Source: an archaeon | Lineage (GTDB): Archaea; Thermoproteota; Nitrososphaeria; Nitrososphaerales; Gagatemarchaeaceae | Direction: 5' to 3' | Assembly (NCBI GenBank): GCA_016432545.1 | Contig: CP066694.1 | Span: forward strand, 682,001 to 746,000 | Length of the DNA stretch: 64,000 nt | Shown here: one piece after another, positions 2,492 through 49,690 of the stretch | Layout: each line of letters begins with the position of its first letter | Numbering within the stretch: the stretch's first letter is position 1 | Program-made: the position numbers and the translations under genes | The notes under the pieces: generated by a model | Told to the model about the DNA's origin: nothing | Database searches by the model: none | Seen by the model: the letters and a program-made list of their open reading frames with translations, nothing else

Positions 2492-2784
2492 TGGCGAAGA
2501 GGTACCTGCTCCTACTGGCCGAGAGGCCCCTGGGGCAGGAGGACCTAGAAGCGATATCCGGCGAACTCAAGGCTAGGGCGCTGCGAGCCTCCGTGATCCA
2601 GGTGGACGCGAACCCGATGGCAGTGATAGTAAAGACCGACCAGCGGGGAGCGATGGCTCTTAGAGAGCGGGCGCCTTCGGCCGGGCCGCCACTGAGGGCG
2701 GTGCTCTCCTCGGGGTCCATCGGTAAGCTCAAAAGCAGAGCAAAGGCCGCGGTTGCGACAGTCGATGGCCAAGTTCCTAAGTGA
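2491..2784 (+). CDS. small protein, possibly RNase P component 2 (Pop5/Rnp2-like)
   Basis: A 97-residue protein beginning MAKRYLLLLAERPL at an ATG that overlaps the stop of the preceding RNA-binding protein gene. The order beta-alpha-beta (RYLLLLAE, EAISGELKARALRA, MAVIVKTDQRGAMALRER) fits a ferredoxin-like fold such as archaeal Pop5, the RNA-binding protein subunit of RNase P, whose gene is commonly found beside exosome-type genes. The similarity is weak, so the neighbour carries most of the weight. A structure-based search would support this if the Pop5 fold is recovered. Confidence 0.5.
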   Translation: MAKRYLLLLAERPLGQEDLEAISGELKARALRASVIQVDANPMAVIVKTDQRGAMALRERAPSAGPPLRAVLSSGSIGKLKSRAKAAVATVDGQVPK

Positions 2785-3142
2785 CGAGTACTTCGGCGAC
2801 TTCCAGAATGCACTTTCGTCCGATGCGAAGTGGCTGGAGGTCTCGAAGGGGTTCAAGACCACCATAGCGTTCAACGCGACCGACATCGGACAGAACTTTC
2901 TGCTCGTGGTGGAGAACGGTGCGACGACTCTGCAAAAAGTGTCGCCCGGGACGGCCGCGGAGTTTTCCTTCGACGGGACTTACGACACCTGGGGCAAGGT
3001 CGTGAAGGGAGAGCTCGACCTGCAGAGCGCGGTCCTGAAGGGGCAGCTCAAGTTCAAGGGCTCCCTTACCAAGATCCTGATGTACAGGGACAGGCTCACC
3101 AGGGTCGCGGAGGTCATGAGGGACCTCCCCAAGGAATTCTAG
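2765..3142 (+). CDS. SCP2 sterol-carrier-like lipid-binding protein
   Basis: A 125-residue single-domain protein starting at the ATG at 2765, which overlaps the previous gene by 20 bases. Features of the SCP2 fold include NFLLVVENGATTLQKV, the FDGTYDTWGKVVKGELDLQSAV segment split over the core, and LKFKGSLTKILMY near the C-terminus (the typical MKGKLKIKG...LM ending). SCP2 domains bind fatty acyl-CoAs and other lipids in a hydrophobic tunnel. Its stop codon overlaps the end of the convergent acyl-CoA operon, whose thiolase and dehydrogenase act on the kind of ligand this fold carries. No membrane segment or export signal is seen. Confidence 0.85.
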   Translation: MAKFLSDEYFGDFQNALSSDAKWLEVSKGFKTTIAFNATDIGQNFLLVVENGATTLQKVSPGTAAEFSFDGTYDTWGKVVKGELDLQSAVLKGQLKFKGSLTKILMYRDRLTRVAEVMRDLPKEF

Positions 3143-3570
3143 GCCTGCACGAATACGTAGTACGGGTTTCCTTCCTTGCTCGTCCTCGACTCCACTTTGA
3201 CTTTCATCCCGGGCTTGGCCTTCTCGGCCTCGACCCCCTCGAGCCAGGCGAGCGCCTTTGTGCCGCCCTTGAACTCGGCGATCGCAATCACGTAGGGGTC
3301 GTTCTCGACGAAGCTGGCAGGGGTGATCTGCACCCGCGTGAATGTCACCAGGGTCGCCTCCTTGCCCAGGTCGACCCATTCGAATTGGGAGCTCATGCAC
3401 CTTGAGCAGTCAGCCTGAGGCGGGAAGGCGACGTTCCCGCACTCCTTGCACTTCGTTGTCACGAAGCGACCTTCCCGGAGGGCGTCCCAGAACTCCTTCG
3501 TCCTCGATATCGGGATGTCGAACCTCAGGGTCAGGGAGCGCCGGGAGTGGAGGGCAGGGTCTCCGGACAA
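3139..3570 (-). CDS. DUF35 OB-fold/zinc-ribbon acyl-CoA-binding protein
   Basis: A 143-residue protein with the DUF35 layout: an N-terminal helix (TKEFWDALREGRF), a rubredoxin-like zinc ribbon CKECGN...CSRCMSSQFEW, and a C-terminal OB-fold (TLVTFTRVQITPASF to the end). Family members are non-catalytic partners of thiolases and of acyl-CoA lyases and shuttle acyl-CoA between active sites. It starts at a TTG 4 bases after the thiolase gene ends, so a thiolase-DUF35 complex is likely here. No HMG-CoA synthase gene lies next to it, unlike the archaeal mevalonate complexes where this pairing is best known. Confidence 0.88.
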   Translation of the reverse strand: MSGDPALHSRRSLTLRFDIPISRTKEFWDALREGRFVTTKCKECGNVAFPPQADCSRCMSSQFEWVDLGKEATLVTFTRVQITPASFVENDPYVIAIAEFKGGTKALAWLEGVEAEKAKPGMKVKVESRTSKEGNPYYVFVQA

Positions 3571-3574
3571 CTCG

Positions 3575-4735
3575 TCAGTCCCTCGAGAGTATGGTGACGT
3601 ACGCGTAGTGCCCCGTGCCCCCTACGTTGTGGACCAGGCCGATCCCGTTCTTGATCGGGGCCTGCCTGCTCCCGGCCTCGTTCCGCAGCTGCTTGGTCAC
3701 TTCGACGGCCATTGAAACTCCGGTCGCCCCGATCGGATGCCCCTTCGCCTTGAGGCCGCCGTCGAGGTTGACCGGGATCCGGCCGCCTATCTCAGTCTCG
3801 CCTTCTCTGATCATCTTGGCCCCCTCCCCCTTCTTGCAGAACCCGAGGTCTTCGTAAGCCATCAGCTCCGCGATCGTGAAGCAGTCATGGCAGGTCGCGA
3901 CGTCCACCGAGGATGGCTCGACCTTCGCTATCGAGTACGCTCGTCTTGCGGCCTCGACCGAGGCCCCGAGGCCCACGTAGTCAGGGCGCCGGCTCAGGTT
4001 CGCGGAGTCGGACGAGTACCCGATCCCCCTGACCCAGACCGGTGTGTCGGTCAGCTTCCTGGCCACGTCCTCGGAGGCAAGGATGACAGCGGCGGACCCA
4101 TCGGAAAGGGGGCACGCGTCGTAGAGCTTCAAGGGCCAGGAGACTACCTGCGAGCCCAGGGCCTTCTCAATCGTGATCTCCTTCTGGAACTGGGCGTTGG
4201 GGTTCATCGACCCGTAGTGGTGGGCCTTGACCGCGACCCGCGCCATGTCCTCCTCCGTCGTCCCGAACCTGTTCATGTGGGCGACCGCGTACAGCGCGTA
4301 GTAAGCGGGGAAGGTCATCCCGTAGTTCTCGAACTCCCAGGTGTACGAGCCGGCTCTTCCGATCAGCTCCACGGATGTCATGGTGTCAACCTCGGTCATC
4401 TTCTCGACGCCCACAGCCATGGCGATGTCCCCCTCGCCACTGGCTATCGAGTTGCAGGCAGCCTTCAAGGCGGCGCTCCCGCTCGCGCAGGCTGCCTCGA
4501 CCCTCATCGTGCCCACCGAGTCGAGCCCCGCGTATTCGTTGACTATCACGGCGGGGAGGGACTCCTCGTACCAGCCGCCGGCGCTGCCGACAACCACGTT
4601 CTTGATCTCCTTCTTGTCGATGCCCGCATCTTCGACCGCACCCTTTATCGACTCGAAGGCGAGCTCAGCAACGTTCACGTCCGTCCTCCTCCCGAACTTC
4701 GAGTGCCCTACGCCGACGATCGCTACGCGGCCCAT
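3575..4735 (-). CDS. archaeal thiolase / acetyl-CoA acyltransferase (SCP2-thiolase type)
   Basis: A 386-residue thiolase-fold enzyme that condenses or cleaves acyl-CoAs. The nucleophilic cysteine lies in VEAACASGSAALKAA, the GH motif in LKAKGHPIGATG, and the C-terminal NVGGTGHYAYV replaces the usual CxG motif, as in the SCP2-type/archaeal thiolase subgroup. A second conserved motif is TCHDCFTIAELMAYEDLG. The gene lies 7 bases after the acyl-CoA dehydrogenase gene and 4 bases before the DUF35 gene, in one operon. In this company thiolytic chain shortening in beta-oxidation is more likely than mevalonate synthesis. Confidence 0.92.
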   Translation of the reverse strand: MGRVAIVGVGHSKFGRRTDVNVAELAFESIKGAVEDAGIDKKEIKNVVVGSAGGWYEESLPAVIVNEYAGLDSVGTMRVEAACASGSAALKAACNSIASGEGDIAMAVGVEKMTEVDTMTSVELIGRAGSYTWEFENYGMTFPAYYALYAVAHMNRFGTTEEDMARVAVKAHHYGSMNPNAQFQKEITIEKALGSQVVSWPLKLYDACPLSDGSAAVILASEDVARKLTDTPVWVRGIGYSSDSANLSRRPDYVGLGASVEAARRAYSIAKVEPSSVDVATCHDCFTIAELMAYEDLGFCKKGEGAKMIREGETEIGGRIPVNLDGGLKAKGHPIGATGVSMAVEVTKQLRNEAGSRQAPIKNGIGLVHNVGGTGHYAYVTILSRD

Positions 4736-4742
4736 GACAGGC

Positions 4743-5915
4743 TCACTCCCCGTCTAGGAGTTCCTTTGAGAGGATCCATCGCTGGACCTCCGACGTCCCC
4801 TCCACGATGTCCAGGACCTTGGCGTCGCGCAGGTACCTCTCGAGAGGGAGGGCCTTGCTCACGCCGTACCCGCCGTGGATCTGGATGGAGCGCTCCGCGA
4901 CCCAGACCGCAGTCTCGCTCGCGAAGTACTTCGCCATCGCCGCCTCCTTGAGGAACTCGTCGCCCTTGTCGTGGATGGATGCGGCCTTGTAGGTCAGGAG
5001 CTTCGCCGCCTCTGTCCTCGTCGCCATGTCTGCGATCATGAACCTGATCGCTTCGTACTTGGCGAGGGGCCTGTCGAAGATGTTCCTCTTCTTCGCGTAC
5101 TTTATCGCCTCTTCGAGGGCCGCTTCGGCGAGGCCCACGGCGGCCGCGGCCGCCCCTATCCTTGACTTGCTGAGGATGGTGAGCGCTATGAGGAATCCGT
5201 CCCCTTCCCTGCCCATCAGGGCGGAGGCGGGGATCCGGCAGTCCGCGAACGTGAGCTCGGCGGTCGCTGTCCCTCTCGCGCCCATCACCTCGAGCTTCTG
5301 CCCGACGCTGAAGCCCGGGGTCCCCTTTTCGACTATGAAGGCGCTGATCCCCGCGGCGCCGTCCTCGGGCGTGCCCGTCCTGGCGAAGAAGACGAGCAGG
5401 TCCGCGACCGCGCCCTGCGTGATGAAGATCTTGGACCCGTTGACGACGTATGAGTCGCCGTCCTTGGTAGCCCTAGTGGAGATCCCTGCGGCGTCAGAGC
5501 CGGCTCCGGGCTCCGTCAGCCCGTACGCCCCGATGATCTCTCCCTTTACGAGGCGAGGCAGGTACCTTGACCTCTGCTCCTCGGTGCCGGACAGAGCGAT
5601 GGCGCTGCCGACCAGGCCGTTCTGGACGCCCATGATGAACCCCGCCGAGAGGCTCACTCGCGAAATCTCCTCCCCGACGATCACCGAGCCCATCAGGTCC
5701 AGGCCCAGCCCTCCGTATTCCTTGGGGACTGAAAGGCCGAGAAGGCCGTATTCGCCCATCTTCTTCTGAAGCTCGAACGGATACTCGTCAGTCCTGTCAA
5801 TCCGGGCCGCGACTGGGAGGACCTCTCTCTTCGCGAACTCCCGCGCCCACTTTCTGAGCTCAGAGTAGTCTGTCTCGTCCAGAGCCTGCTCAGAACGGGT
5901 CACCAACGTCTCCAT
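4743..5915 (-). CDS. acyl-CoA dehydrogenase
   Basis: A 390-residue FAD enzyme introducing the alpha-beta double bond into acyl-CoA. Signature segments are AYGLTEPGAGSDAAG (FAD/substrate loop), KIFITQGAVADL, and the C-terminal QIHGGYGVSKALPLERYLRDAK with a nearby EGTSEVQRWIL, where the EGTSE glutamate is the usual catalytic base position. Length and order are normal for the family. The start ATG at 5915 lies just before a strong palindrome at 5934-5948. The gene is second in the operon after the CaiB-type enzyme, with a 59-base gap that holds that palindrome, so it may also have its own control. Confidence 0.94.
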   Translation of the reverse strand: METLVTRSEQALDETDYSELRKWAREFAKREVLPVAARIDRTDEYPFELQKKMGEYGLLGLSVPKEYGGLGLDLMGSVIVGEEISRVSLSAGFIMGVQNGLVGSAIALSGTEEQRSRYLPRLVKGEIIGAYGLTEPGAGSDAAGISTRATKDGDSYVVNGSKIFITQGAVADLLVFFARTGTPEDGAAGISAFIVEKGTPGFSVGQKLEVMGARGTATAELTFADCRIPASALMGREGDGFLIALTILSKSRIGAAAAAVGLAEAALEEAIKYAKKRNIFDRPLAKYEAIRFMIADMATRTEAAKLLTYKAASIHDKGDEFLKEAAMAKYFASETAVWVAERSIQIHGGYGVSKALPLERYLRDAKVLDIVEGTSEVQRWILSKELLDGE

Positions 5916-5933
5916 AACCTATTGGTTACCATC

Positions 5934-5948
5934 ATTTCCATTGGAAAT
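5934..5948. promoter_or_regulatory. perfect palindrome in front of the acyl-CoA dehydrogenase gene
   Basis: ATTTCC-ATT-GGAAAT is a perfect 6+6 palindrome with a 3-base spacer, flanked by GGTT at 5924-5927 and AACC at 5949-5952, which extends the dyad. It lies 19 bases before the start codon at 5915 in the gap after the CaiB-type gene. This is the shape of a dimeric regulator operator, for example of a fatty-acid or acyl-CoA responsive repressor. The regulator itself is not identified in the window. Confidence 0.45.
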
Positions 5949-5974
5949 AACCTTTCCCTTTCACCAGACGGCGG

Positions 5975-7117
5975 CTACTGGACCGCATGAGAGCGGCGCA
6001 GCCGGGCCACTTCGGCGCGTGAGTATCCCAGCGATTCGAGGATCCTGGGCGTGTCTGCCCCGAGCTCGGGCGCCTGAGTCTGGGGCTTGGACCTCATCCT
6101 CGGACGAGACAGGACCGGGGCGCCCAGGACGTGCCCGCTGTGCGGGACCCGGACGAGGGCGCCCGCAGCCTTTGCCCAGTCGCTCTGGAGCGCCTCTGAG
6201 ACGGTCAGGACTGGGGTGACGCACGTATCCTTGTGCATCAGGAGACGAGCCCAGTGGTCCCTCGTCCTCGCGGAGAAGATCTTCTTCAGCGTGGACTTCA
6301 CCTGCCGTCGCTCCGGAGGGCTCCCGAACCTCTTGCCTTCCAGCTCGGGCACCCCGAGTGCCACGACCAGGTTGTGCCAGAACCTCTCCTCGATCGCGGC
6401 GACGGCTACGTGGCGCCCGTCGGAGGTCGGGTAGATGCTGTAGTAGGGCGTCGACCCGAAGATCAGGCTGTGCCCCGGGACAGGCTCCTCGCCGGTCGCG
6501 ATGTAGGTCGCCGCGGGGAGGACCATCCAAGACGCAAGGGACGGGACAATGGGGACGTCGATGTAGACGGGCCCACGCCGCCCGGCGAGAGCGCCAAGTA
6601 TTGCGAGCGCGGCGTGCATCCCCGAAGCCAGGTCGCCGAGCTGCAGAAGGGGAGGGGTCGGAGGGCCGTAGGAGAGCGTACCGGCCATCGCCTGGAAGTT
6701 GACGTCGTGCCCAGGCATCGAGCTCAGAGGGCTCTTCTGGCCGTAGGCGGAGATCGAGCAGTACACTATCTTCGGGCTGATGGTTTTCACTTCTTCATAC
6801 GAGAACCCCAGCCTCTTCATCGCCCCCGGCCTGAACCCCTCGACGAAGACGTCGGCACGCTCGAGGAGGCGCCTCATGACCCCTCGACCTTCCTTGGACT
6901 TCAGGTCGACCCCGATGCTCGACTTGTTCCGGTTGACTATGTCGTGGACGGGACTCTTCCCTCGCTTGGTCGGGGGCGTCGCCCGCATGTAGTCGCCCAG
7001 GCCGGGCTGCTCGACCTTGGTGACTTCTGCACCCATGTCAGAGAGGAGCATCGTGGCGTAGCCGCCGGGGAAGAGGCGAGTTGCGTCGACGACCCTGACG
7101 CCGTCCAGAAAGCCCAC
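5975..7117 (-). CDS. CaiB/BaiF family protein, probably alpha-methylacyl-CoA racemase
   Basis: A 380-residue class III CoA-transferase-fold enzyme. It opens FLDGVRVVDATRLFPG and contains VNRNKSSIGVDLKSKEG, both typical. The motif MPGHDVNFQAMAGTLSYG carries adjacent His and Asp, and LQLGDLASGMHAALAILGAL carries a second Asp; this pair matches the His/Asp acid-base pair of alpha-methylacyl-CoA racemase better than the FD motif of formyl-CoA transferases. Such racemases convert 2-methyl-branched acyl-CoAs to the isomer that dehydrogenases accept, which fits the operon. The start is GTG at 7117, about 25 bases after a TATA-like site (7138-7150). Confidence 0.85.
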   Translation of the reverse strand: MGFLDGVRVVDATRLFPGGYATMLLSDMGAEVTKVEQPGLGDYMRATPPTKRGKSPVHDIVNRNKSSIGVDLKSKEGRGVMRRLLERADVFVEGFRPGAMKRLGFSYEEVKTISPKIVYCSISAYGQKSPLSSMPGHDVNFQAMAGTLSYGPPTPPLLQLGDLASGMHAALAILGALAGRRGPVYIDVPIVPSLASWMVLPAATYIATGEEPVPGHSLIFGSTPYYSIYPTSDGRHVAVAAIEERFWHNLVVALGVPELEGKRFGSPPERRQVKSTLKKIFSARTRDHWARLLMHKDTCVTPVLTVSEALQSDWAKAAGALVRVPHSGHVLGAPVLSRPRMRSKPQTQAPELGADTPRILESLGYSRAEVARLRRSHAVQ

Positions 7118-10572: not shown

Positions 10573-11760
10573 TTGAAGGAGGGAAGGGCCCGAAGATTGT
10601 GGGCAGGAGTGATGGTGCTCGGGCTCGTCGCCTCGATGTTTCTCACAGGAGTCTCTCGCCCGGCCAGCGCGACAACGCTGCCTTCCTGCGGGATGGTCGT
10701 CACTACGTCAGTCACATTCAAGGCGGACCTCGGCCCCTGCGACGGGAACGGGCTCATGGTGGTCTCGGACAACGTCGTCATCGACTGCAAGCGCCACGCC
10801 CTGACCGGGTCCGGGAGCGGGACAGGATTCAACCTGACGCAAGTCGACAAGGTGACTCTGAAGAACTGCCTCGTCTCCGGCTTCTCCTATGGAGTGGCAG
10901 TCGGGCTATCATCCAACGTGACCGTCAAGGGGGTCACAGCCTCGAACAACGTCGTCGGCTTCCTGATGGACAGGACTACGCACAGCACCTTCAAGGGTGA
11001 CGCGGCCAGGAACAACTACAACGGGTTCGTCCTTAGCTCCTCCTCCAGCACCACGATGAAGGCCAACACGGCTAGTCACAACCAGTTCGCAGGGTTCCAG
11101 GCCACCTTCGCGACCAACAGCACGCTGAAAGGGAACTTTGCGAAGGACAACTACAATGGTTTCGTAGTTTCTCTCTCGTCCAGCACGACCCTCAAGGGGA
11201 ACTCCGCGAGCCGGAACAACTTCCTAGGGTTCGAGCTGGACAGCACTCAGAACAGCACGGTCAGGGAGAACTTTGCCAGGAACAACGGCTACGGGTTCTA
11301 CGTGACTTCCTCGACGGGAGACACGGTGAAGGGGAACCTTGCGAAGGACAACTACAACGGGTTCGGCATCTGGTACTCCACCCTCATGACTGTCCTGAGG
11401 AACACGGCGCAGAACAACAACTACAGTGGTTTCGAGGTCGAATATTCATACAACAGCTCCATAACCAGGAACACCGCCAAGAACAACGGGTACGCAGGAT
11501 TTTCGATGTGGGGGGCTGCGGGGAACCTCGTCAAGAGCAACACCGCCAACAGGAACTCGAACGGCTTCGTCCTCGGGACTGACTCGAGCGGCAATCAGCT
11601 CAGTGCCAACGCAGCCGACGTGAACTCTATGTTCGGATACTCTGACTATACCTCAGGGTCTCAGACCTCTGGGACCGCCAATCCTTATGCCACCAACGAA
11701 TGCCAGGGCAACCTTGCGGGATGCTCCAGCCCGTCTGGACTCGGCGCACCGCAGCCCTGA
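10573..11760 (+). CDS. secreted NosD-type right-handed beta-helix protein
   Basis: A 395-residue exported protein. The N-terminus has a basic stretch then GVMVLGLVASMFLTGVSRPASA, a clear signal peptide with an AxA-like cleavage site. The rest is a chain of about 22-24-residue beta-helix coils with recurrent asparagine-rich turns (for example AKDNYNGF occurs twice and GNxAxxNN variants many times), the pattern of NosD/CASH-domain parallel beta-helices that often act on surface polysaccharides. There is one Cys pair near the N-terminus (CGM...GPCDG) and another at the extreme C-terminus. Substrate unknown. A second copy follows directly. Confidence 0.82.
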   Translation: MKEGRARRLWAGVMVLGLVASMFLTGVSRPASATTLPSCGMVVTTSVTFKADLGPCDGNGLMVVSDNVVIDCKRHALTGSGSGTGFNLTQVDKVTLKNCLVSGFSYGVAVGLSSNVTVKGVTASNNVVGFLMDRTTHSTFKGDAARNNYNGFVLSSSSSTTMKANTASHNQFAGFQATFATNSTLKGNFAKDNYNGFVVSLSSSTTLKGNSASRNNFLGFELDSTQNSTVRENFARNNGYGFYVTSSTGDTVKGNLAKDNYNGFGIWYSTLMTVLRNTAQNNNYSGFEVEYSYNSSITRNTAKNNGYAGFSMWGAAGNLVKSNTANRNSNGFVLGTDSSGNQLSANAADVNSMFGYSDYTSGSQTSGTANPYATNECQGNLAGCSSPSGLGAPQP

Positions 11761-11825
11761 CACTTGAGTTAAGACGCTCCGACCCTTCAAGGCTTAAAGA
11801 ACGCAAGTCCAGGCGGGAGTTCTCA

Positions 11826-12959
11826 ATGAAGGGAGGGCAGCCCGAGCTCCTGAAAGCAGCCGCGGCGACCCTGTTCCTTCTCCTGCTCACAACAGCCGTC
11901 CCGCCCGTTGTGAACGCCGACGGGCCGGCATGCGGAGCCATAATCTCGGGATCGATCACTCTCAACGCGGACGTGGGCCCTTGCGACTCCCTCGGAGTGG
12001 GGGGAGTCGCGCTCGACGTGGGGACCTCCGGGGCTTCCCTCGACTGCCACGGGCACGCAATCAAAGGAAACGGGACCGCAGGCACGATCGGAATCAGGCT
12101 GGAGCAGGTTGACGTAGTGAAGATCAAGAACTGCCGCATCCAGGGCTTCCACATCGGGGTCTTCGTGCACGGCTCGACCTTGGGCAGCTTCGAGAAGAAC
12201 GTGGTAAGGAGGAACGACTACGGGTTCTCTCTCCTGGCCTCCGATCTGAACACCCTCAAAGGTGACAGGGCCATCGAGAACACCTTCGGCTACTTCCTGC
12301 AGGGGAGCACCGAGAACATCCTCAAGGGGAGCACTGCCACGGGCAACGGGAACGGGTACTACCTGCTCAACTCGCCCGCGAACCTGCTGAGGGGCAACTC
12401 TGCGTACGACAACAACGGAGCGGGCTTCGTCGTCGATGGCTCGTCCAACGTAAGGCTCGAGAGGAACTCGGCCAAGGGCAACAACTTCGACGGCTTCGTA
12501 GTCATGGGGCGCACCACCAACGAGAGCCTCAGGTTCAACACTGGCAGCGGGAACAACGGGAACGGATTCTACCTGGGCGGGTCGGACCACGGGTTCGTCG
12601 TGGGCAACAGGGCGAGCGCGAACACCGGACACGGCTTCCTGATTGCCTCGTCAACATCAGTGGAAGTGAGAGGGAATAGGGCAGTTGAGAATCTCTACGG
12701 CATCTTCCTACTCGGAAGCACGGGAAACAGCCTCACGGGGAACCTTGCCAAGGGAAGCCTCTACTCCGGGTTCTACTTCAGCGGGACGTCTCTGAACAAC
12801 ACGGTGAGCGCGAACGAAGCCAACGTCAACGCGAAGTACGGGTACCTCGACCGAACGACCGGGACAGGCACCTCCAGTTCGGGCAACTTCTACGCGGACG
12901 ACATCTGCAGGAACAACGGGGTCGCGGGCGGTTACCTCAACGACCTCTGCGCACCCTAA
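11826..12959 (+). CDS. secreted NosD-type right-handed beta-helix protein, second copy
   Basis: A 377-residue exported protein starting at the ATG at 11826 (a TATA-like GGCTTAAAGAAC lies about 28 bases before it). The signal peptide core is ATLFLLLLTTAVPPVVNA. It shares with the previous protein the N-terminal CGAIISGSITLNADVGPCDS pattern, the CHGHAIKGNG coil, and repeated beta-helix turns with NGNGFYL, NFDGFVV and similar motifs. It also ends with paired cysteines. The two genes are a tandem duplication that has diverged. A role in binding or cleaving surface or extracellular glycans is likely from the fold but not proven. Confidence 0.82.
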   Translation: MKGGQPELLKAAAATLFLLLLTTAVPPVVNADGPACGAIISGSITLNADVGPCDSLGVGGVALDVGTSGASLDCHGHAIKGNGTAGTIGIRLEQVDVVKIKNCRIQGFHIGVFVHGSTLGSFEKNVVRRNDYGFSLLASDLNTLKGDRAIENTFGYFLQGSTENILKGSTATGNGNGYYLLNSPANLLRGNSAYDNNGAGFVVDGSSNVRLERNSAKGNNFDGFVVMGRTTNESLRFNTGSGNNGNGFYLGGSDHGFVVGNRASANTGHGFLIASSTSVEVRGNRAVENLYGIFLLGSTGNSLTGNLAKGSLYSGFYFSGTSLNNTVSANEANVNAKYGYLDRTTGTGTSSSGNFYADDICRNNGVAGGYLNDLCAP

Positions 12960-36155: not shown

Positions 36156-38612
36156 ATGAGCGGGAGAGGAATCTTCCTTGTCCTCGTGTTGGCGATGCTG
36201 CTGCCCAGCGTTCCTCTTGCAGGCGCGGTGGACGGGTCCTTCCTGCCAGGCTCCCAGGTGCAGTTGCACGGTCCGCTGGTCGACAAGGTCCTGATCAGTG
36301 TTTACTACACTGACTCAAGTATGCAGGGCGCAGTCGCAGCAGGAACCATACAGGCTCCTGAATGGACGTTTAGCACCGGCGCATACACCTCTCTGGGTAG
36401 CAACCCTGATGTCATCGAAAACTCGACTGTGAGCTATTCGTGGTTCGGCCTAAATTTCAATACTCTGAAAGCCCCAGGTAGCAACGTCCACTTCCGAAGG
36501 GCGGTCCAGTACCTCCAAGACTACAGCTACATTCAGACGACGATCCTGAACGGAGTTGAAGGAATCGCTTCGCCGGACGTTCTCCCATGCCCGGCATACG
36601 GAGGAGCGTGCAATCCCATGGACGGCGGCAACGCAAGCGTGAAGTCGTATTCCTTCAACCTCACTGCTGCAGCGGCCGAGCTGCTTGCGGGAGGATTCTT
36701 CTGCGACGGTTGCTCTGCTTCGAACGCCAACAGCTCGACGCATTGGTTCTACGATTCGTTGCACACCAGCGCCCTGTTCCCCACTCTATGGAGAAGGACG
36801 ACACATCATAGGGACCCTTGGGGTGCCAGGATGTCGTTCGAAGCGTCGCAGATTGGGCTGGCACTCGACAATCGCCTGTGCTGCTTCGGTGGAGGCATAG
36901 GAGGCGCATTCACCTACTGTTACGCTCCCTTGGCCCACGAGATAATAACGCCTGGCCAGTTCCAGGGGACAACGGGTGCCCTAGCCTGGCAGAACTCCCC
37001 CCAGGTTGTGAACTCGACCGTGGTCGCGTCTGTGGGCTGCGACATGTACACGTTCGGTTTCATAGGAGGACCGGACTATGACGGAACCTTGCAGGAGTAC
37101 AACTCTCAGTTCTCAGGGACACCGACGAACCTGGGGAACTTCGAGAACCAGAGCGTCAACATCGCGACGAACCACGTATCCTATGCGCACGACAGGACGA
37201 CAGCCGAGCAATGGGCCAGAAACTTCGCGGTCGACTATTCCCAGCAGTTGCCCACGGTGATGGGCTACTTCGAGAACCAATTGTTCGCAGAGAACGCGAA
37301 CGGCTGGACGGGCTTTGCACTCCTCCCCACCCAGAGTCCCAACGAGGCTGCTGGACTCTACTATACTCTCCTTAACGTCCACATGTGCGGTGTTTCTAGC
37401 TGCGACATTGGAGGGGTCGGAGGAGGACAACCTGGCGGTACCTTCGCGCTCGCGCTACAGCAGGTCGCAGACCAGGATGGACTCAACCCTCTCTACCAAA
37501 CGGCCTGGTCGTGGCAGCGGGATGTCTGGGGCGAGTTCTACGATAGTCCTCTTGTCGTCCCCCCCCGGCAAGCAAACGTGCAGGGCGCTCTCGAGGACTA
37601 CCTCACGACTTCACACTCGATCTCCTCCTTTACGGGACCAACGCCTTCAGGCAAGGGGTCTTTCGACTACCAGGCCATCAAGGGACCCCAGCAACATGCG
37701 GCGGCAAACATAGTCAATGGAGAGAGGATCCGCTTCGTCTTTGCAAACAACATCACCTTCAGCGACGGAGTCCCATTGACTGCGGTCGACTATCAGTTCT
37801 CCCTCGACGCGTGGAATGTTGCAGGTTCCCCTAACTACCCAGACAGCGCCTCCCCCATGTCAAACATCCTAGGCGGGCCGCTGGGGCTCATCTCGTCGAA
37901 TGTCGTCGACAGATACACCATTGACATCTATCTCAACATTTCTTCCTTCTGGAACGAAGGCAGGATAGTGTTGCCCATACTGCCCCAACACATCTGGAAG
38001 TACTTCAACCTGGACCACGTGTCGACCATTTCCTCCACTCTGGACACCACTAAGCCGTTCTTCTTTCCTACCGGAGCATACGAGACCCAAGGATCCCCTC
38101 ATCCTTCAAAGTGGCTCCGCTTCCTCAACAACCTCGAGGTGGGCTCCGGGCCGTTCTGGTTGAGGACCTGGGACACGCCCAGTGGGACGGGTGAGATCGA
38201 CAGAAACCAGTTCTACTTCCGCAGTGCTTGGTACGCGAACCTGTCAGCCAATCAGGTTTCCCCCGGGACCCCCTATCTGTTCAGGACGACACTCGTAATT
38301 CCAATCTACAATCCAACTGGCTCTACCTACTGTGGAGTGAGTTCGGGGGCAACGGGCCTGTGCCAGTTGAAGGGAATGACTAATGGATTGTCTATGCCCA
38401 AGTTGGGGAAGGTCCTCTGGCTCTACACGGCGGCCGGAGCCCTAGTTAGGAAGTACAATCTCCACATCAACTTGGCCACAGGAGTCTACAGCGCAGCGAT
38501 TGACACTTCGAGCCTTACCCCCGGAGACTACAGGACATTGATTAGCTCGAGCTACATTTTCCAAGGCCTGCGCAGGACCTGGAGCCAGTCTTCTGGATTC
38601 AGAGTTTCGTAG
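36156..38612 (+). CDS. oligopeptide-binding protein of a peptide ABC transporter (SBP family 5)
   Basis: An 818-residue exported solute-binding protein. The signal peptide is IFLVLVLAMLLPSVPLAGA, followed by a long two-lobe SBP_bac_5-type domain; typical segments are FRRAVQYLQDYSYIQTTIL near the N-terminus, and IRFVFANNITFSDGVPLTAVDYQFSLDAW (about residues 525-555). Many asparagine-linked glycosylation-type NxS/T sites and several cysteines (for example CPAYGGACNP) suit an extracellular protein. It is longer than typical bacterial DppA/OppA (about 500-550). A diverged tandem paralog follows. The membrane components are probably the dpp operon at 56053. Confidence 0.88.
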   Translation: MSGRGIFLVLVLAMLLPSVPLAGAVDGSFLPGSQVQLHGPLVDKVLISVYYTDSSMQGAVAAGTIQAPEWTFSTGAYTSLGSNPDVIENSTVSYSWFGLNFNTLKAPGSNVHFRRAVQYLQDYSYIQTTILNGVEGIASPDVLPCPAYGGACNPMDGGNASVKSYSFNLTAAAAELLAGGFFCDGCSASNANSSTHWFYDSLHTSALFPTLWRRTTHHRDPWGARMSFEASQIGLALDNRLCCFGGGIGGAFTYCYAPLAHEIITPGQFQGTTGALAWQNSPQVVNSTVVASVGCDMYTFGFIGGPDYDGTLQEYNSQFSGTPTNLGNFENQSVNIATNHVSYAHDRTTAEQWARNFAVDYSQQLPTVMGYFENQLFAENANGWTGFALLPTQSPNEAAGLYYTLLNVHMCGVSSCDIGGVGGGQPGGTFALALQQVADQDGLNPLYQTAWSWQRDVWGEFYDSPLVVPPRQANVQGALEDYLTTSHSISSFTGPTPSGKGSFDYQAIKGPQQHAAANIVNGERIRFVFANNITFSDGVPLTAVDYQFSLDAWNVAGSPNYPDSASPMSNILGGPLGLISSNVVDRYTIDIYLNISSFWNEGRIVLPILPQHIWKYFNLDHVSTISSTLDTTKPFFFPTGAYETQGSPHPSKWLRFLNNLEVGSGPFWLRTWDTPSGTGEIDRNQFYFRSAWYANLSANQVSPGTPYLFRTTLVIPIYNPTGSTYCGVSSGATGLCQLKGMTNGLSMPKLGKVLWLYTAAGALVRKYNLHINLATGVYSAAIDTSSLTPGDYRTLISSSYIFQGLRRTWSQSSGFRVS

Positions 38613-38687
38613 GCCCCGTCCCGACCCTATGATGAAGCCCCAGTGACTCGAGAAGCTCGCTCCCGCGTGGAACGCTCAGAAGGTTAT

Positions 38688-38701
38688 GCGAGATGGTAAC
38701 A
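38688..38701 (+). promoter_or_regulatory. shared 14-base motif upstream of TATA, second peptide-binding protein gene
   Basis: GCGAGATGGTAACA ends exactly 36 bases before the ATG at 38737 and precedes a TATA-like GGATATTAAGG (38704-38714). The identical 14-mer ends exactly 36 bases before the ATG of dppB at 56053. It may be a transcription-factor B recognition element plus operator or a shared regulator site. Confidence 0.6.
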
Positions 38702-38736
38702 TTGGATATTAAGGCCGGTTTCGAAATCCGAGTCGT

Positions 38737-40992
38737 ATGAAGGAGTACTGGCTATCTGCGACCCTAGTGCTCTTCTTCCTCCTGCCCAGCGTCCCGATTG
38801 CCGGGGCGACGGACGGCTCCTTCCTCTCATCGAACCAGGTCGGGCTTCACGGGCCTCTGGTGGACAGGGTGGTCATCTCAGTGTATACCTCCGAGGCAGG
38901 GATGCTGAACGCGCTCTCGGCAGGCTCGATCCAGGCCCCGGAGTGGAGTTTCAGCACCGGAGGATATGCTACTCTGGCCTCGCAGGCCCACGTAATCGAA
39001 GGCGCCACGGTCTCGTATTCCTACTTCAGCATAGCATTCAACACTCTCAAGTTCCCTGGGAGCAGCGTCCACTTCAGGAGGGCGATACAGTACATGCAGG
39101 ACTACAGCCTGATCCAGTCGACGATCCTCAACGGGGTCGAAGGCGTAGCCTCGCCGGACGTCCTCCCGTGCGCAGCCTATTCGGGCGCCTGCAATCCGAT
39201 GGACGGGACCAACTCAAGCGTGAAGTTCTATCCCTTCGACCTCGACGCGGCAGGCCAGGAGCTCATCGCGTCTGGGGTCTTCTGTGGGAACTGCGGGGCT
39301 GGGAACGACAGCTACGACTCCTCAACGACTTGGTGGACGGACGCCGCGCAGACCCAGGCCTTCTCCCCGAATCTTTGGATCGTCAACGACCACCACAGAT
39401 ACGAGTGGGGGTCGGAGATAGTGAACTGGGCGGGCCAGATCGGATTGCAGATCTCCGCGCACACGCCCCCGGGCAGGGCTGGAGCCTCTGCGAACTGCTA
39501 CGGGCCCAACTCGCGAGAGGTTATGTCCCCAGGGTCCTTCCAGGGTACGACGGGCGCGAACGCATGGGAGAATACCCCGCAGCACGTGAATTCTACCCAG
39601 ACCGGGCTCGACCTCTGCGACATGTACACGAAGGCAGACAGCCCTGGCCCCGAGTACTACTACAACATGGAGCAGTACAACAGCCAGTTTTCCGGGACCC
39701 CGGTCAACATGGAGAACTTCGAGAATCAGACCCTCAACGTGGCCACGAGCCATGTTATGCTTGCGCCAGACCAGCAGTCAGCGGAGCGCTGGGCAAGGAA
39801 CTTCGCCGTCTATTACTCGCAGCAGGTACCGACCGTCATGGGCTACTTTGAGAACCAGCTATTCGCAAACAACGTAAATGGGTGGACTGGTTTCGCACAG
39901 ATTCCCACCCAGAGTCCCAACGACCTGGCGGGGCTCTACTACAGCCTCCTCAACGTCCACAGGTGCGGGCCAAGCTCGTGCGAACTGAACGCTACTGGTG
40001 GAGGGAGACCTGGCGGGACCCTCAACCTGGCCCTCGAACATGTGGCCGACCAAGGGGGGCTCAACCCGCTTTATGGAGAGCAGTGGGGTTGGCAGACCGA
40101 CGTCTGGAGGGTGGTCTACGACGTACCGATGCTCCTCTCGCCTGACAACGCGAGCGTGGTGGACAGCTTCTTGGGCTACATGGTGTCGAGCTTCTCGGTC
40201 TCTCCCTTCAGCGGGATGACTCCCGCAGGAAAGGCCGCTTTCGACTACCAGGCGGTAAGGGGACTGGGTCAGCACATTTCGCGGAGGATTCTGAACGGGC
40301 AGGAGATCAGGCTCCAGTTCCTCAGGAACATCACCTTCAGCGATGGTATCCCGATGACAGCGCTGGACTACCTGAAGTATTTCGACTTGGACCACTTCTC
40401 GACGTCTCAGTCCACGGCGGACACGACCCAGCCGCTCGGGCCGGAGTTGCTGGCCTTCGCCCCTTCCCGCGTGAGGCCTCCTCCTCGGTGGGTCAAGTTC
40501 CTGAACAACCTAGAGGTCGGGTCGGGTCCGTTCACGCTGGGGAGTTGGGACAGGGTTAGCGGGACCGGCGAGCTCGACAGGAGTCCCACTTACTTCAGGT
40601 CTGCCTGGGACGCCAACCTGACCTCCAACGCCGTGCAGCAGGGGACCCCGTATGTGTTCAGGATGGCGATACAGATGAGGATCTTCAACCCGCTGATAAC
40701 ATCCTACTGCGGAGTCGCCCCTGGGGAGACGGGCTTGTGCACCTTGGCCGGGACAAATCCCGGACAGTCTTGGGCGAGGGTCGGAAAGGTGCTGTCCCTC
40801 TTTGACTCGACAGGCCACCTGCTGAAGAAGTACAGCCTGGTCAAGGATGCGTCGATAAGCGGATACAACGCGACGATAAGCACCACCCACCTGGCCCCAG
40901 GGGACTACAAGCTCTTGGTGCAGACGATCTTCACCTTCCAGGGGCTTAGGAGGACGTGGATTCAGGTCTCAGGGTTCACAGTCGAACCTTAG
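38737..40992 (+). CDS. oligopeptide-binding protein paralog with an internal deletion
   Basis: A 751-residue exported solute-binding protein, similar to the previous one throughout (same cysteine motif CAAYSGACNP, same QDYSLIQSTILNGVEG, same C-terminal FQGLRRTWIQVSG). Signal peptide LSATLVLFFLLPSVPIAGATDG. Relative to the 818-residue paralog it lacks about 67 residues: after ITFSDGIPMTALDY the next residues are LKYFDLDHFS, while the paralog has 68 residues in between. The missing part lies in the C-terminal lobe that closes over the ligand, so the protein may bind a different peptide or be impaired. The reading frame is intact. Confidence 0.85.
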   Translation: MKEYWLSATLVLFFLLPSVPIAGATDGSFLSSNQVGLHGPLVDRVVISVYTSEAGMLNALSAGSIQAPEWSFSTGGYATLASQAHVIEGATVSYSYFSIAFNTLKFPGSSVHFRRAIQYMQDYSLIQSTILNGVEGVASPDVLPCAAYSGACNPMDGTNSSVKFYPFDLDAAGQELIASGVFCGNCGAGNDSYDSSTTWWTDAAQTQAFSPNLWIVNDHHRYEWGSEIVNWAGQIGLQISAHTPPGRAGASANCYGPNSREVMSPGSFQGTTGANAWENTPQHVNSTQTGLDLCDMYTKADSPGPEYYYNMEQYNSQFSGTPVNMENFENQTLNVATSHVMLAPDQQSAERWARNFAVYYSQQVPTVMGYFENQLFANNVNGWTGFAQIPTQSPNDLAGLYYSLLNVHRCGPSSCELNATGGGRPGGTLNLALEHVADQGGLNPLYGEQWGWQTDVWRVVYDVPMLLSPDNASVVDSFLGYMVSSFSVSPFSGMTPAGKAAFDYQAVRGLGQHISRRILNGQEIRLQFLRNITFSDGIPMTALDYLKYFDLDHFSTSQSTADTTQPLGPELLAFAPSRVRPPPRWVKFLNNLEVGSGPFTLGSWDRVSGTGELDRSPTYFRSAWDANLTSNAVQQGTPYVFRMAIQMRIFNPLITSYCGVAPGETGLCTLAGTNPGQSWARVGKVLSLFDSTGHLLKKYSLVKDASISGYNATISTTHLAPGDYKLLVQTIFTFQGLRRTWIQVSGFTVEP

Positions 40993-45974: not shown

Positions 45975-46538
45975 TTGGAAACTACCGAGTCGCGACTCTC
46001 CGGGATACTGGAACAGCGGGAAAGGGGATTCCTTCTGGAGAAGGTCAGGGTCAAGCTCAGGAGTTCTCTTGAGAACATCGACGTCGGGGACTTCCGCATC
46101 GAGAAGCTGAACGAGGGCGAGACGGCAGAGCTTCCACGCTGGGTCGCAGACGAGCTGGTGAAGTCGGGCCTAGCAGAGATGCCCGAGGAGCCGTTCGAGT
46201 CTGAGATGGTCAGGTCTCTGAGCAGGGAGAAGATGATGGGGCCGCTACAGCTGCCACCGCTCCCTCACGACTTCTACGTCAAGATGAAGAGAAGGCTGGC
46301 GTTTCTGAGGGAGGCCGCGGCCGAGGGCAGGGGGAAGAAGGAGGACTACGAGAAGGTGCGGGCGGGCAGCTACGACCTCATAGGCCTGAGGCTCAGCAAG
46401 CTGCTCGCTCTCTCGAGCTCCGCGACGCCAGCCTCAGTACTTGCGGATAAGCTGACGCCTGAAGAGGTTGCGTTCTTCTCCCTCTCGCAGTCGATCTCAA
46501 AGGACTGGAGGGGCGCTCTCTTGGACGGTGCGAAGTAG
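45975..46538 (+). CDS. GINS complex subunit (Gins15/Gins51-type)
   Basis: A 187-residue protein from the TTG at 45975, about 30 bases after a TATA-like CTTAATTAC (45939-45947); the longer upstream frame overlaps livM and was rejected. It has a long helical N-terminus (RERGFLLEKVRVKLRSSLENI, VGDFRIEKLNEGETAELPRWVADELVKSGLAEM, LPPLPHDFYVKMKRRLAFLRE) matching the GINS A-domain, and continues with a helical domain ending LTPEEVAFFSLSQSISKDW. GINS is part of the CMG-like helicase with MCM and Cdc45/RecJ. It overlaps mcm by one base. Confidence 0.85.
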   Translation: METTESRLSGILEQRERGFLLEKVRVKLRSSLENIDVGDFRIEKLNEGETAELPRWVADELVKSGLAEMPEEPFESEMVRSLSREKMMGPLQLPPLPHDFYVKMKRRLAFLREAAAEGRGKKEDYEKVRAGSYDLIGLRLSKLLALSSSATPASVLADKLTPEEVAFFSLSQSISKDWRGALLDGAK

Positions 46539-49500
46539 TGGCCACGCTGGCGAGCGGAAAGCTCTCGGAGATGTTCGAGGACTTCCTCAAGACGGCGGTC
46601 GACAGGTCGGGGAACTCGGTCTATAGGACCAAGATATCCCAGCTGATCTCGAGCGAGGGCAAGTCGCTCGTCGTGGACTTCAACGACCTCCTAAGGTACA
46701 ACGGCGACCTGGCGAACCGCGTCCTCCTCGAGCCAGACTCCTCGCTGGGGTCGTTCAAGATCGCTGCGTTCGAGACGATGAGGAGCGAGAACGCGATGTA
46801 CGCTGACAGGGTCAAGAGGGAACTCTCCGTCAGAATCAGGGGGATTCCCGAGCAGGTACCCCTCAGGAAGGTCGACACTTCGTACCTGGACAAGATGCTC
46901 TCGGTGTCCGGGATGGTCGTCCGGACCTCGGAGCTCAGGCCGCTGATGACCTCCGCGGCGTGGACGTGTCCCAGCGGGCACCTGACGTACCAAGACCAGG
47001 ACGACCTGGCGCTCAAGCGGCCCCCGAGGTGCGAGCTCTGCGGAGAGGTGAGGAACTTCGAGCTCGACAAGAAGCACAGCAGGTTCATCGACTTCCAGGT
47101 GGTGAGGGTGCAAGAGCTGCCGGAGGAGCTCCCGCCCGGCCAGCTTCCTCAGTTCTTTGACGTGAACCTTGAAGGCGACATCGTAAACTCAGCCCGTCCT
47201 GGCGACAGGGCGATCCTCTCAGGGATCGTCAGGGCGGTCCCCGACTATTCGGTGGGCGCCGTCAAGACGAGGCTCTTCAAGTCACAGATCGACTGCAACC
47301 ACGTCGAGATCAAGGGGAAGGAGCCCGACCAGGTGAACATCACGAAGGAGGACGAGGCGCTCATCAGGGGGCTCGCCTCAGAGCCCGACGCGTACGACAG
47401 GCTGATCTCCTCCGTGGCTCCGGTCATACTAGGGCATCGCCCAGAGAAGGAAGCGATCCTCCTGCTCCTCGCGGGCGGGAGCGCAACCCCCCTGCCCGAC
47501 GGGACCAAGCTCAGGGGCGACATGAACGTACTTTTCGTGGGTGATCCTGGCTGTATGGTGGGAGACGAGAGAATAGCTTTGGGCAACGGCGCGATCGTGA
47601 AGATTGAACAGGTTGGAAGGTCGCATCTCCAAGACCTGAACTTGCAGGTCCTTACTGGGGAGGGAGGAGGAAAGAGGGATTGGGCGACGAAGTTCCACAT
47701 CTACAGGCAGCAGCCAGTCCTCGAGGCGGTGACTGAGAGCGGCAAGAGCATCAAGGGGACCTACAACCACCCCATGCTGGTCCTGAGGAACGACGAAGGC
47801 AAGATCATCAGAGAGTGGAGAAGGCTCGACGAGCTCAAAGTGGGCGACAGGCTCGTCACCACGACGTTCATCCCCTGCCAAGTCACGAAGTACTTGGATA
47901 CGGGGTTCGAGGTTGTGCAGCAGAAGCTAGGGCCTAGATTCAGAGGGAGGCTGCCCGATGTCGTCGACCCGAAGCTCGGGGCGTTCCTAGGATACCTGCT
48001 GGGCGACGGGTTCGTGAACAAATACCGAGCGGTCCTCTCGGTAGCAGAGCCAGAGGTCGACATCCTTCCGAAATTGGTCGCAATCGAGGAGGACCTCTTC
48101 GGGATAAGGCCCGCTGTGATTCGGAGGCTGAGGGAAGACAGGAACGTGGCGATGCACGATGTGTATCTCAACAGCTCTCACATAGCGGCGAACCTACAAT
48201 TCATGCGAGTGAGGCGGGTGCCCGACCTCATACTGAGGTCGGGAAACGAGGTCGTCGCGGAGTTCCTCAGATGGCTATTTGAGGCGGACGGGACGGTGTT
48301 CTCGAAGGGCAGGGGGCGAAGGGCTGTCGGGCTAAAGGCCAAGGACATTGAACTCCTGAGAGATGTGCAGTTCCTCCTCTTGAGGTTCGGAATCCATTCG
48401 CGGATAGTCGCGAACGCCTTGCTGATTAGGCGTGGGGAAGACATAGTCAGATACGCGAAGCACATTGGCTTCGTGTCGAAAAAGAAGACGGACAGGCTGA
48501 ATGAATTGAAATCTCAGGCTCTGGCCTTCGGACGAGTCCACAAGCAAAGGAGCGAGAGAGTAGTTGCCATTCACGAGGGGCCCCTGGAGGATGTCTACGA
48601 CATCGAGGTCCCTCGCTCGCATCGATTCATAGCGAACGGTCTGATATCTCACAATACGGCCAAGAGTGAGATGCTGAAGTTTGCCGCCCAGGTCGCGCCG
48701 AGAGGGATCTACGCGAGCGGGAGAGGCACTACCGCGGCGGGGCTCTCGGCAGCAGTAATCAGGGAGAAGAACGTGTTCATGCTGGAAGCAGGAGTAGTCG
48801 TATTGGGCGACCAGGGGATCGCTGCGATAGACGAATTTGAAAAGATGAAGCCCGAGGACAGGACCGCGCTGCACGAGGCGATGGAGCAGAACACTGTCAC
48901 GATTGCGAAGGGCGGGATCTACGCGACACTCAACGCGAGGACCGCCATACTCGCGGCGTGCAACCCCGTGCTCGGGAGGTACAACCCGTTCCAGAACCTG
49001 ACGGAAAACATCGGGACCCTTCCGATACCGCTACTGACCAGGTTCGACCTGATCTTCGTGATCAAGGACCAGCCGCATCCCGCGGACGACGAGAAGCTCG
49101 CGACGCACATCCTGGCGGTGCACACGAGGAGGACCTACGCCACCCCGCCGCCAGTTGAGTTCTCGCTTCTGAAGAAGTACATCTCCTTCTCGAAGAGAAT
49201 CACGCCGAACCTGACCAAGGAGGCCTCGGCCAGGCTCAGGGACTACTATCTCGAGCTGAGGAAGGGAGGAGGGGAGGAGGGCCAGATCCCAGCTACTCCG
49301 AGGACTTTGGAGTCGCTGATAAGGGTAGCTTCGTCGAGGGCGCGGATCCTGCTGAGGCAAGAGGTGACTGAGGAGGACGCGCTGTCGGCCATATCTCTGA
49401 TGAACAGGATGGTGGAGGACGTACTGACCGACGCGACCACCAAGAAGACCGACTTTGGCATCCAGCTGGGCAAGCCGCTCGGCGAGACCAAGAACCTGAA

Positions 49501-49690
49501 GGCTGCGATGGAAGTCTTCAAGGCCCTGGAGGGCCCCGACAAGAAGCCGGTGGAAAGGAAGGCCTTCAAGGACGAGCTGGTGAAATCCAGGTTCTCGGAC
49601 GAGGACGCCGAGAAGATGATCAGGACGATGTTCAGGGAAGGCATGGTCTACGAGTCGAAGCCGGGCTTCATCCGCAGGCTCGGCGGCTAG
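46538..49690 (+). CDS. mcm: replicative DNA helicase MCM, split by an intein
   Basis: A 1050-residue precursor; removal of the 368-residue intein gives a 682-residue MCM, a normal length. N-terminal OB domain with a zinc knuckle (WTCPSGHLTY and RCELCGEVR), then AAA+ helicase. Walker A reads NVLFVGDPG before the intein and TAKSEMLKF after it; Walker B is GIAAIDEFEKM and the arginine finger lies in IPLLTRFDLIF. A winged-helix tail ends the protein. Starts at a GTG overlapping the GINS stop and is followed 16 bases later by hel308. Confidence 0.95.
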   Translation: MATLASGKLSEMFEDFLKTAVDRSGNSVYRTKISQLISSEGKSLVVDFNDLLRYNGDLANRVLLEPDSSLGSFKIAAFETMRSENAMYADRVKRELSVRIRGIPEQVPLRKVDTSYLDKMLSVSGMVVRTSELRPLMTSAAWTCPSGHLTYQDQDDLALKRPPRCELCGEVRNFELDKKHSRFIDFQVVRVQELPEELPPGQLPQFFDVNLEGDIVNSARPGDRAILSGIVRAVPDYSVGAVKTRLFKSQIDCNHVEIKGKEPDQVNITKEDEALIRGLASEPDAYDRLISSVAPVILGHRPEKEAILLLLAGGSATPLPDGTKLRGDMNVLFVGDPGCMVGDERIALGNGAIVKIEQVGRSHLQDLNLQVLTGEGGGKRDWATKFHIYRQQPVLEAVTESGKSIKGTYNHPMLVLRNDEGKIIREWRRLDELKVGDRLVTTTFIPCQVTKYLDTGFEVVQQKLGPRFRGRLPDVVDPKLGAFLGYLLGDGFVNKYRAVLSVAEPEVDILPKLVAIEEDLFGIRPAVIRRLREDRNVAMHDVYLNSSHIAANLQFMRVRRVPDLILRSGNEVVAEFLRWLFEADGTVFSKGRGRRAVGLKAKDIELLRDVQFLLLRFGIHSRIVANALLIRRGEDIVRYAKHIGFVSKKKTDRLNELKSQALAFGRVHKQRSERVVAIHEGPLEDVYDIEVPRSHRFIANGLISHNTAKSEMLKFAAQVAPRGIYASGRGTTAAGLSAAVIREKNVFMLEAGVVVLGDQGIAAIDEFEKMKPEDRTALHEAMEQNTVTIAKGGIYATLNARTAILAACNPVLGRYNPFQNLTENIGTLPIPLLTRFDLIFVIKDQPHPADDEKLATHILAVHTRRTYATPPPVEFSLLKKYISFSKRITPNLTKEASARLRDYYLELRKGGGEEGQIPATPRTLESLIRVASSRARILLRQEVTEEDALSAISLMNRMVEDVLTDATTKKTDFGIQLGKPLGETKNLKAAMEVFKALEGPDKKPVERKAFKDELVKSRFSDEDAEKMIRTMFREGMVYESKPGFIRRLGG
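47552..48655 (+). mobile_element. MCM intein with LAGLIDADG endonuclease
   Basis: A 368-residue in-frame intein inserted in the Walker A motif between Gly and Thr of GDPG-TAKS. It begins CMVGDERIALG (block A Cys1), has GTYNHPMLVLRN (block B, TxxH), DOD endonuclease motifs LGYLLGDGFVNKY and WLFEADGTVFSKG with acidic residues present, and ends VYDIEVPRSHRFIANGLISHN (blocks F and G, with His-Asn) before Thr as the +1 residue. Both splicing and homing domains look intact. This P-loop insertion site is a known MCM intein site in other archaea. Confidence 0.93.

Follow-up and report, generated by a model that had tools for sequence, protein, structure and literature searches.

Four minus-strand genes in a closed genome probably provide a soil-type, heterotrophic archaeon related to the Gagatemarchaeaceae with a module for catabolic beta-oxidation, which includes a putative AMACR-type racemase. 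The genes lie in a 64-kb stretch of DNA, hereafter the window, that corresponds to C1:682001-746000 of the 1,504,237 bases of the genome. The locus starts with a plus-strand gene (2765-3142) for a stand-alone 125-amino-acid protein with the SCP2 fold, predicted to bind lipids or acyl-CoA (Pfam SCP2, 4e-10). This gene converges on a minus-strand run that encodes a DUF35 protein consisting of a zinc ribbon and an OB fold (3139-3570; zf-ChsH2, 2e-12; OB_ChsH2_C, 9e-15), an SCP2-type thiolase (3575-4735; Thiolase_C_1, 1e-46; Thiolase_N, 2e-30), an acyl-CoA dehydrogenase (4743-5915; Acyl-CoA_dh domains, down to 7e-48) and a CaiB/BaiF-family protein with AMACR-type residues (5975-7117; CoA_transf_3, 7e-93). 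The spacing within the run, calculated from the gene coordinates, is 4, 7 and 59 nt, and the widest gap (5916-5974, minus strand) is the slot that in most relatives holds a gene for a fused 3-hydroxyacyl-CoA dehydrogenase/enoyl-CoA hydratase. The open frames and the Pfam matches, which exceed the gathering cut-off for all five genes, bear out the positions and identities given in a first-pass annotation of this DNA.

The cluster is not a chance assemblage because a close orthologue of its thiolase is present in 43 of the 46 sampled genomes of the host family (the window's own included), and the remaining three genomes are incomplete (60-76%). Outside the family, thiolase matches of 58-68% identity were detected in only 4 of the 155 genomes covered by an order-level search. 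In relatives, the SCP2 and DUF35 genes are arranged convergently in 42 of 42 loci. The host family appears to be Gagatemarchaeaceae, of Group I.1c Thaumarchaeota, with Candidatus Gagatemarchaeum stordalenia as a named member; organic-carbon use and genes for beta-oxidation of fatty acids are reported for this family in PMC10640624, which also refers to work from 2015 on the oxidation of fatty acids by Thaumarchaeota of peat.

Among the proteins of the run, the DUF35 protein has four Cys residues that are conserved in all 42 relatives, and most of its PDB matches (6esq_E, 9myr_B, 6ok1_B, 3irb and 7pxp) are partner proteins in complexes with a thiolase or an aldolase. These matches support, by homology, the assignment of the DUF35 protein as the predicted partner of the window thiolase, in line with the pairing suggested by the first-pass annotation, and a thiolase with DUF35 is a recognised type of heteromer. 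The acyl-CoA dehydrogenase contains the three ACAD domains (Pfam) and a candidate catalytic residue, E372, which is presumably the catalytic Glu of a YEGT-like motif and is kept in 40 of 40 sequences, a count that covers both dehydrogenase types of the family loci. Two unrelated dehydrogenases (about 44% identity) occupy the same slot of the cluster in different family members. The best PDB matches of the window dehydrogenase are short-chain/butyryl-type dehydrogenases, and neither this protein nor the CaiB protein reaches an NCBIfam equivalog cut-off. The thiolase, for its part, scores above the cut-off with PRK12578 (588 bits) and PRK06064 (560 bits) and has the nucleophilic Cys (C83), the HDCF residues H283 and C285, and the GHP His (H333), all conserved in the 41 relatives that are complete at these sites (43 of 43 for the nucleophilic Cys). 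In steroid side-chain aldolases (Ltp2/Sal), Tyr replaces His in this motif, which reads YDHF or YDCY (PMC12329534). The window protein has HDCF as well as the nucleophilic Cys, and a steroid aldolase role is therefore rejected; H and C of the motif occur in all 41 complete relatives.

Two alternative assignments of the enzymes have to be weighed. The closest solved structures of the thiolase, 7yvy and 6esq, are archaeal acetyl-CoA acetyltransferases, so the enzyme could be biosynthetic, making acetoacetyl-CoA for isoprenoids rather than serving breakdown. This option is very improbable. The genome encodes the usual archaeal row of HMG-CoA synthase (HMGS), thiolase and DUF35 genes at C1:314.2-316.8 kb; the HMGS model TIGR00748 (447 bits) crosses its cut-off only at C1:314255-315265, the same genome search found no HMGS gene adjoining the window thiolase, and the two thiolases are 31% identical. 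In a tree of 80 rows, from which 11 near-duplicate family loci had been excluded and some rows of which have long branches, one branch, supported at 100/99, divides 23 HMGS-adjacent thiolases from 18 family orthologues of the window protein. The genes alongside the window thiolase, namely the dehydrogenase and, in relatives, the hydratase/dehydrogenase, also argue against biosynthesis. Placement among the mevalonate acetoacetyl-CoA thiolases, the outcome that the first-pass annotation had named as fatal to its proposal, is therefore rejected on the strength of the tree split and the separate HMGS-adjacent gene. The CaiB protein can be called racemase-like with fair confidence. A phmmer alignment pairs its H137, D162 and E243 with H126, D156 and E241 of M. 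tuberculosis MCR (1x74), which we take to be the catalytic residues of that enzyme, and the set is conserved in all 26 family members that carry CaiB. As an alternative, the protein could belong to the family III CoA-transferases and activate an acid, with succinyl-CoA as one possible CoA donor, for the other enzymes. The top single PDB score does belong to formyl-CoA transferase (160.5 bits), in a tie with AMACR (160.4 bits), and transferase models rank first among the NCBIfam matches, each of them below the cut-off. However, the match to MCR spans all three residues of the catalytic set, and the formyl-CoA transferase aligned in the same search has Tyr and Asp at the positions of the racemase His and Glu, so that the transferase reading is unlikely. 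The racemase proposed from the first reading is supported by these residues, and the whole-sequence scores favour neither assignment.

A further HMGS candidate in the same genome, at C1:468918-469979, was rejected when a family search identified it as a thiolase-domain protein. The region C1:468918-471147 contains a pair of thiolase-domain genes (PRK06066-like and PRK06065-like) with DUF35 genes, adjoined by an ETF pair, an acyl-CoA dehydrogenase and an MmgE/PrpD protein, and represents another acyl-CoA locus.

The window cluster lacks a hydratase and a 3-hydroxyacyl-CoA dehydrogenase, and hence is not a complete beta-oxidation operon. Both activities are found in relatives in a single protein of about 660 amino acids, with the domains 3HCDH_N, 3HCDH (two stretches) and ECH_1, that is encoded between the dehydrogenase and CaiB. 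Among the 43 family loci, 10 end too soon to be judged; in the 33 with full flanks, the fused HAD-ECH gene lies beside the dehydrogenase in 28. In the nearest relative (L080; 91% identity in the thiolase), the contig stops short of CaiB. Eleven of these 28 genes share the strand of the cluster, and the other 17, which are less similar (about 36% identity), run on the opposite strand and adjoin a classical thiolase. The 33 full-flank clusters include 26 with CaiB and 7 from which it is missing; in these 7, the dehydrogenase, thiolase and DUF35 genes stay, so CaiB is not essential to the module. Five of the 33 relatives lack both CaiB and the fused gene, and wherever CaiB occurs among them the fused gene accompanies it, so that the window stands alone in having CaiB but no fused gene; some of these loci come from close relatives, so the cluster counts do not equal independent events. 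With two relatives' fused proteins as queries, tblastn gave no significant match to the fused gene or a remnant of it in the 64 kb, in agreement with the earlier remark that the window has no hydratase or hydroxyacyl dehydrogenase gene, and a family search found no fused gene anywhere in the genome. The two functions are encoded elsewhere: the single HAD-domain match over the cut-off is a stand-alone protein of 294 amino acids (C1:85.2-86.1 kb), next to genes for two ECH proteins (C1:82.7-84.2 kb). Because the fused gene typical of relatives is absent here, the window cluster looks like a trimmed form of one that, judging by the gene content of relatives, would have included the fused dehydrogenase/hydratase. 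The apparent loss of this gene in the lineage suggests that a cluster of this type can shed one member and keep the others. In one relative (locus L105 of genome G077), the genes upstream of the dehydrogenase resemble the dehydrogenase-proteasome-CPSF-like genes at 15.5-19.2 kb of the window; with such neighbours, the block with CaiB seems to have been removed or moved there, as judged from the starts of translations.

Taken as a catabolic module, the cluster would work as follows, although neither the reaction direction (breakdown or synthesis) nor the chain type can be read from sequence. The racemase would convert a 2R-methylacyl-CoA to the 2S form, and the acyl-CoA dehydrogenase would produce an enoyl-CoA and pass electrons to ETF. 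Hydration could be carried out by the enoyl-CoA hydratases of C1:82.7-84.2 kb and oxidation of the 3-hydroxy intermediate by the 3-hydroxyacyl-CoA dehydrogenase of C1:85.2-86.1 kb. The thiolase-DUF35 heteromer would then release acetyl-CoA or, from 2-methyl substrates, propionyl-CoA, which might be taken up via methylmalonyl-CoA mutase. The SCP2 protein would be a separate carrier of acyl-CoA or lipid, probably in an accessory capacity. The genome encodes ETF subunits (4 matches), 4 acyl-CoA dehydrogenases, 3 AMP-binding proteins and a methylmalonyl-CoA mutase adjoining a dehydrogenase. With ETF, AMP-binding proteins and the mutase, the electrons, substrate activation and propionyl-CoA would be manageable in principle, and these accessory enzymes, the mutase included, are consistent with branched-chain breakdown.

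The fold assignment of the SCP2 protein is sound because an AlphaFold2 model, built on 33 relatives (pLDDT 88.5), matches Thermus SCP2 (2cx7) at a TM-score of 0.86; an Archaeoglobus protein was matched more weakly. The SCP2 domain is not fused to the thiolase as in SCPx, the two being separate genes on opposite strands. SCP2 and DUF35 are together in 42 of 42 loci, never split, and a 4-nt overlap of their stop codons is seen in the window as well as in 39 of the 42 relatives; the CaiB side of the block, in contrast, has been rebuilt several times. Nevertheless, the SCP2 gene could adjoin the operon merely through a conserved chromosomal block, with no role in the pathway, and the chance of this falls only somewhat short of even. 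The housekeeping genes beside SCP2 are equally well conserved (of the 43 loci, 41 have the PF01877 RNA-binding gene and 38 have Kae1), so that block conservation explains the position of SCP2 as well as function would. SCP2 matches are present in 22 of 23 sampled family genomes compared with 20 of 98 others of the order. Another 20 SCP2 loci, several of them on short contigs, comprise 17 from outside the family and 3 second copies within it; a single one (L210) has a beta-oxidation homologue nearby, a HAD gene about 2 kb away. SCP2 as a general neighbour of beta-oxidation genes across the order is thus unsupported. With regard to the substrate, general straight-chain fatty-acid beta-oxidation, with the racemase serving occasional methyl branches and no special link to isoprenoids, has about an even chance of being correct. 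Its appeal lies in the loss of CaiB from 7 of the 33 complete clusters, in the resemblance of the dehydrogenase to short-chain/butyryl enzymes and in comparable archaeal clusters that serve fatty acids, as described in PMC6449355. Against it, none of the 26 CaiB orthologues departs from the AMACR residues and CaiB is the only CoA_transf_3 member of its genome, which together suggest a steady need for the racemase. For the catabolic module, branched or isoprenoid acyl chains are possible substrates. The most specific version, family-wide breakdown of acyl chains that carry methyl branches and derive from isoprenoids (such as the phytanyl-type chains of archaeal membrane lipids), in which a methylacyl-CoA racemase feeds an SCP2-carrier-assisted thiolase-DUF35 complex, is doubtful.

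Several other genes of the window deserve mention. An MCM helicase gene (46538-49687, plus strand; 1049 amino acids) has an intein inside, with Intein_splicing and LAGLIDADG_3 Pfam matches within the MCM domains. The next gene (49707-52937, plus strand; 1076 amino acids) encodes a Hel308-like helicase in which SPTA is followed by Cys where Walker A would continue, the DEAD match begins only at residue 413 and LAGLIDADG_3 matches weakly at residues 287-337; a second intein thus probably interrupts the ATP-binding motif. Two adjoining, exported-looking repeat proteins are encoded at 10573-12959 (plus strand), the first of which matches NosD/right-handed beta-helix proteins, and a tandem pair of long, similar proteins at 36156-40989 (plus strand), the first of which matches SBP_bac_5 solute-binding proteins.

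The breakdown of isoprenoid and branched acyl chains by archaea is poorly described in the literature searched here. The searches, which covered few subscription papers, found no paper that joins SCP2, thiolase, acyl-CoA dehydrogenase and Thaumarchaeota, and none on alpha-methylacyl-CoA racemase with archaea, sterol carrier protein and thiolase; a search on racemase/CoA-transferase returned only an unrelated genome paper. The conserved cluster, with its racemase residues, dehydrogenase and thiolase-DUF35 pair, provides concrete enzymes to assay.

The cluster and its parts can be compared with known systems. Like the window CaiB protein, M. tuberculosis MCR has all three residues, His126, Asp156 and Glu241, at the aligned positions, but the window protein, a putative racemase, is archaeal and encoded inside a beta-oxidation cluster. 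The archaeal HMGS-acetoacetyl-CoA thiolase-DUF35 complex (6esq) shares with the window the thiolase fold, the Cys and HDCF residues and an adjoining DUF35 gene; in contrast to that complex, which the same genome encodes elsewhere, the window thiolase has no neighbouring HMGS and belongs to a separate clade. The parallel with animal peroxisomes, drawn in the first-pass annotation, holds in part. As in the SCPx system of peroxisomal branched-chain beta-oxidation, the locus brings together a racemase, a first dehydrogenation, an SCP2-type thiolase and an SCP2 domain, but the window has a dehydrogenase rather than an oxidase, SCP2 is unfused and DUF35 is added. In animal peroxisomes, the first step is carried out by an oxidase and the middle steps by the D-specific multifunctional enzyme 2 (MFE-2), whereas the relatives of the window have a crotonase-type hydratase fused to 3-hydroxyacyl-CoA dehydrogenase. 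The Saci_1103-Saci_1126 cluster of Sulfolobus acidocaldarius, as presented in the accessible part of PMC6449355, likewise combines acyl-CoA dehydrogenase with thiolase and, as in the relatives of the window, includes a hydratase and a hydroxyacyl dehydrogenase; that part of the text mentions neither DUF35 nor sterol carrier. Compared with it, the window module is small, without a hydratase, a hydroxyacyl dehydrogenase or lipases, and has an AMACR-type CaiB and a convergent SCP2 gene. The kind of system is already known; what is new is that racemase residues and SCP2 accompany a thiolase-DUF35 module in an archaeon, together with the trimming of the cluster.
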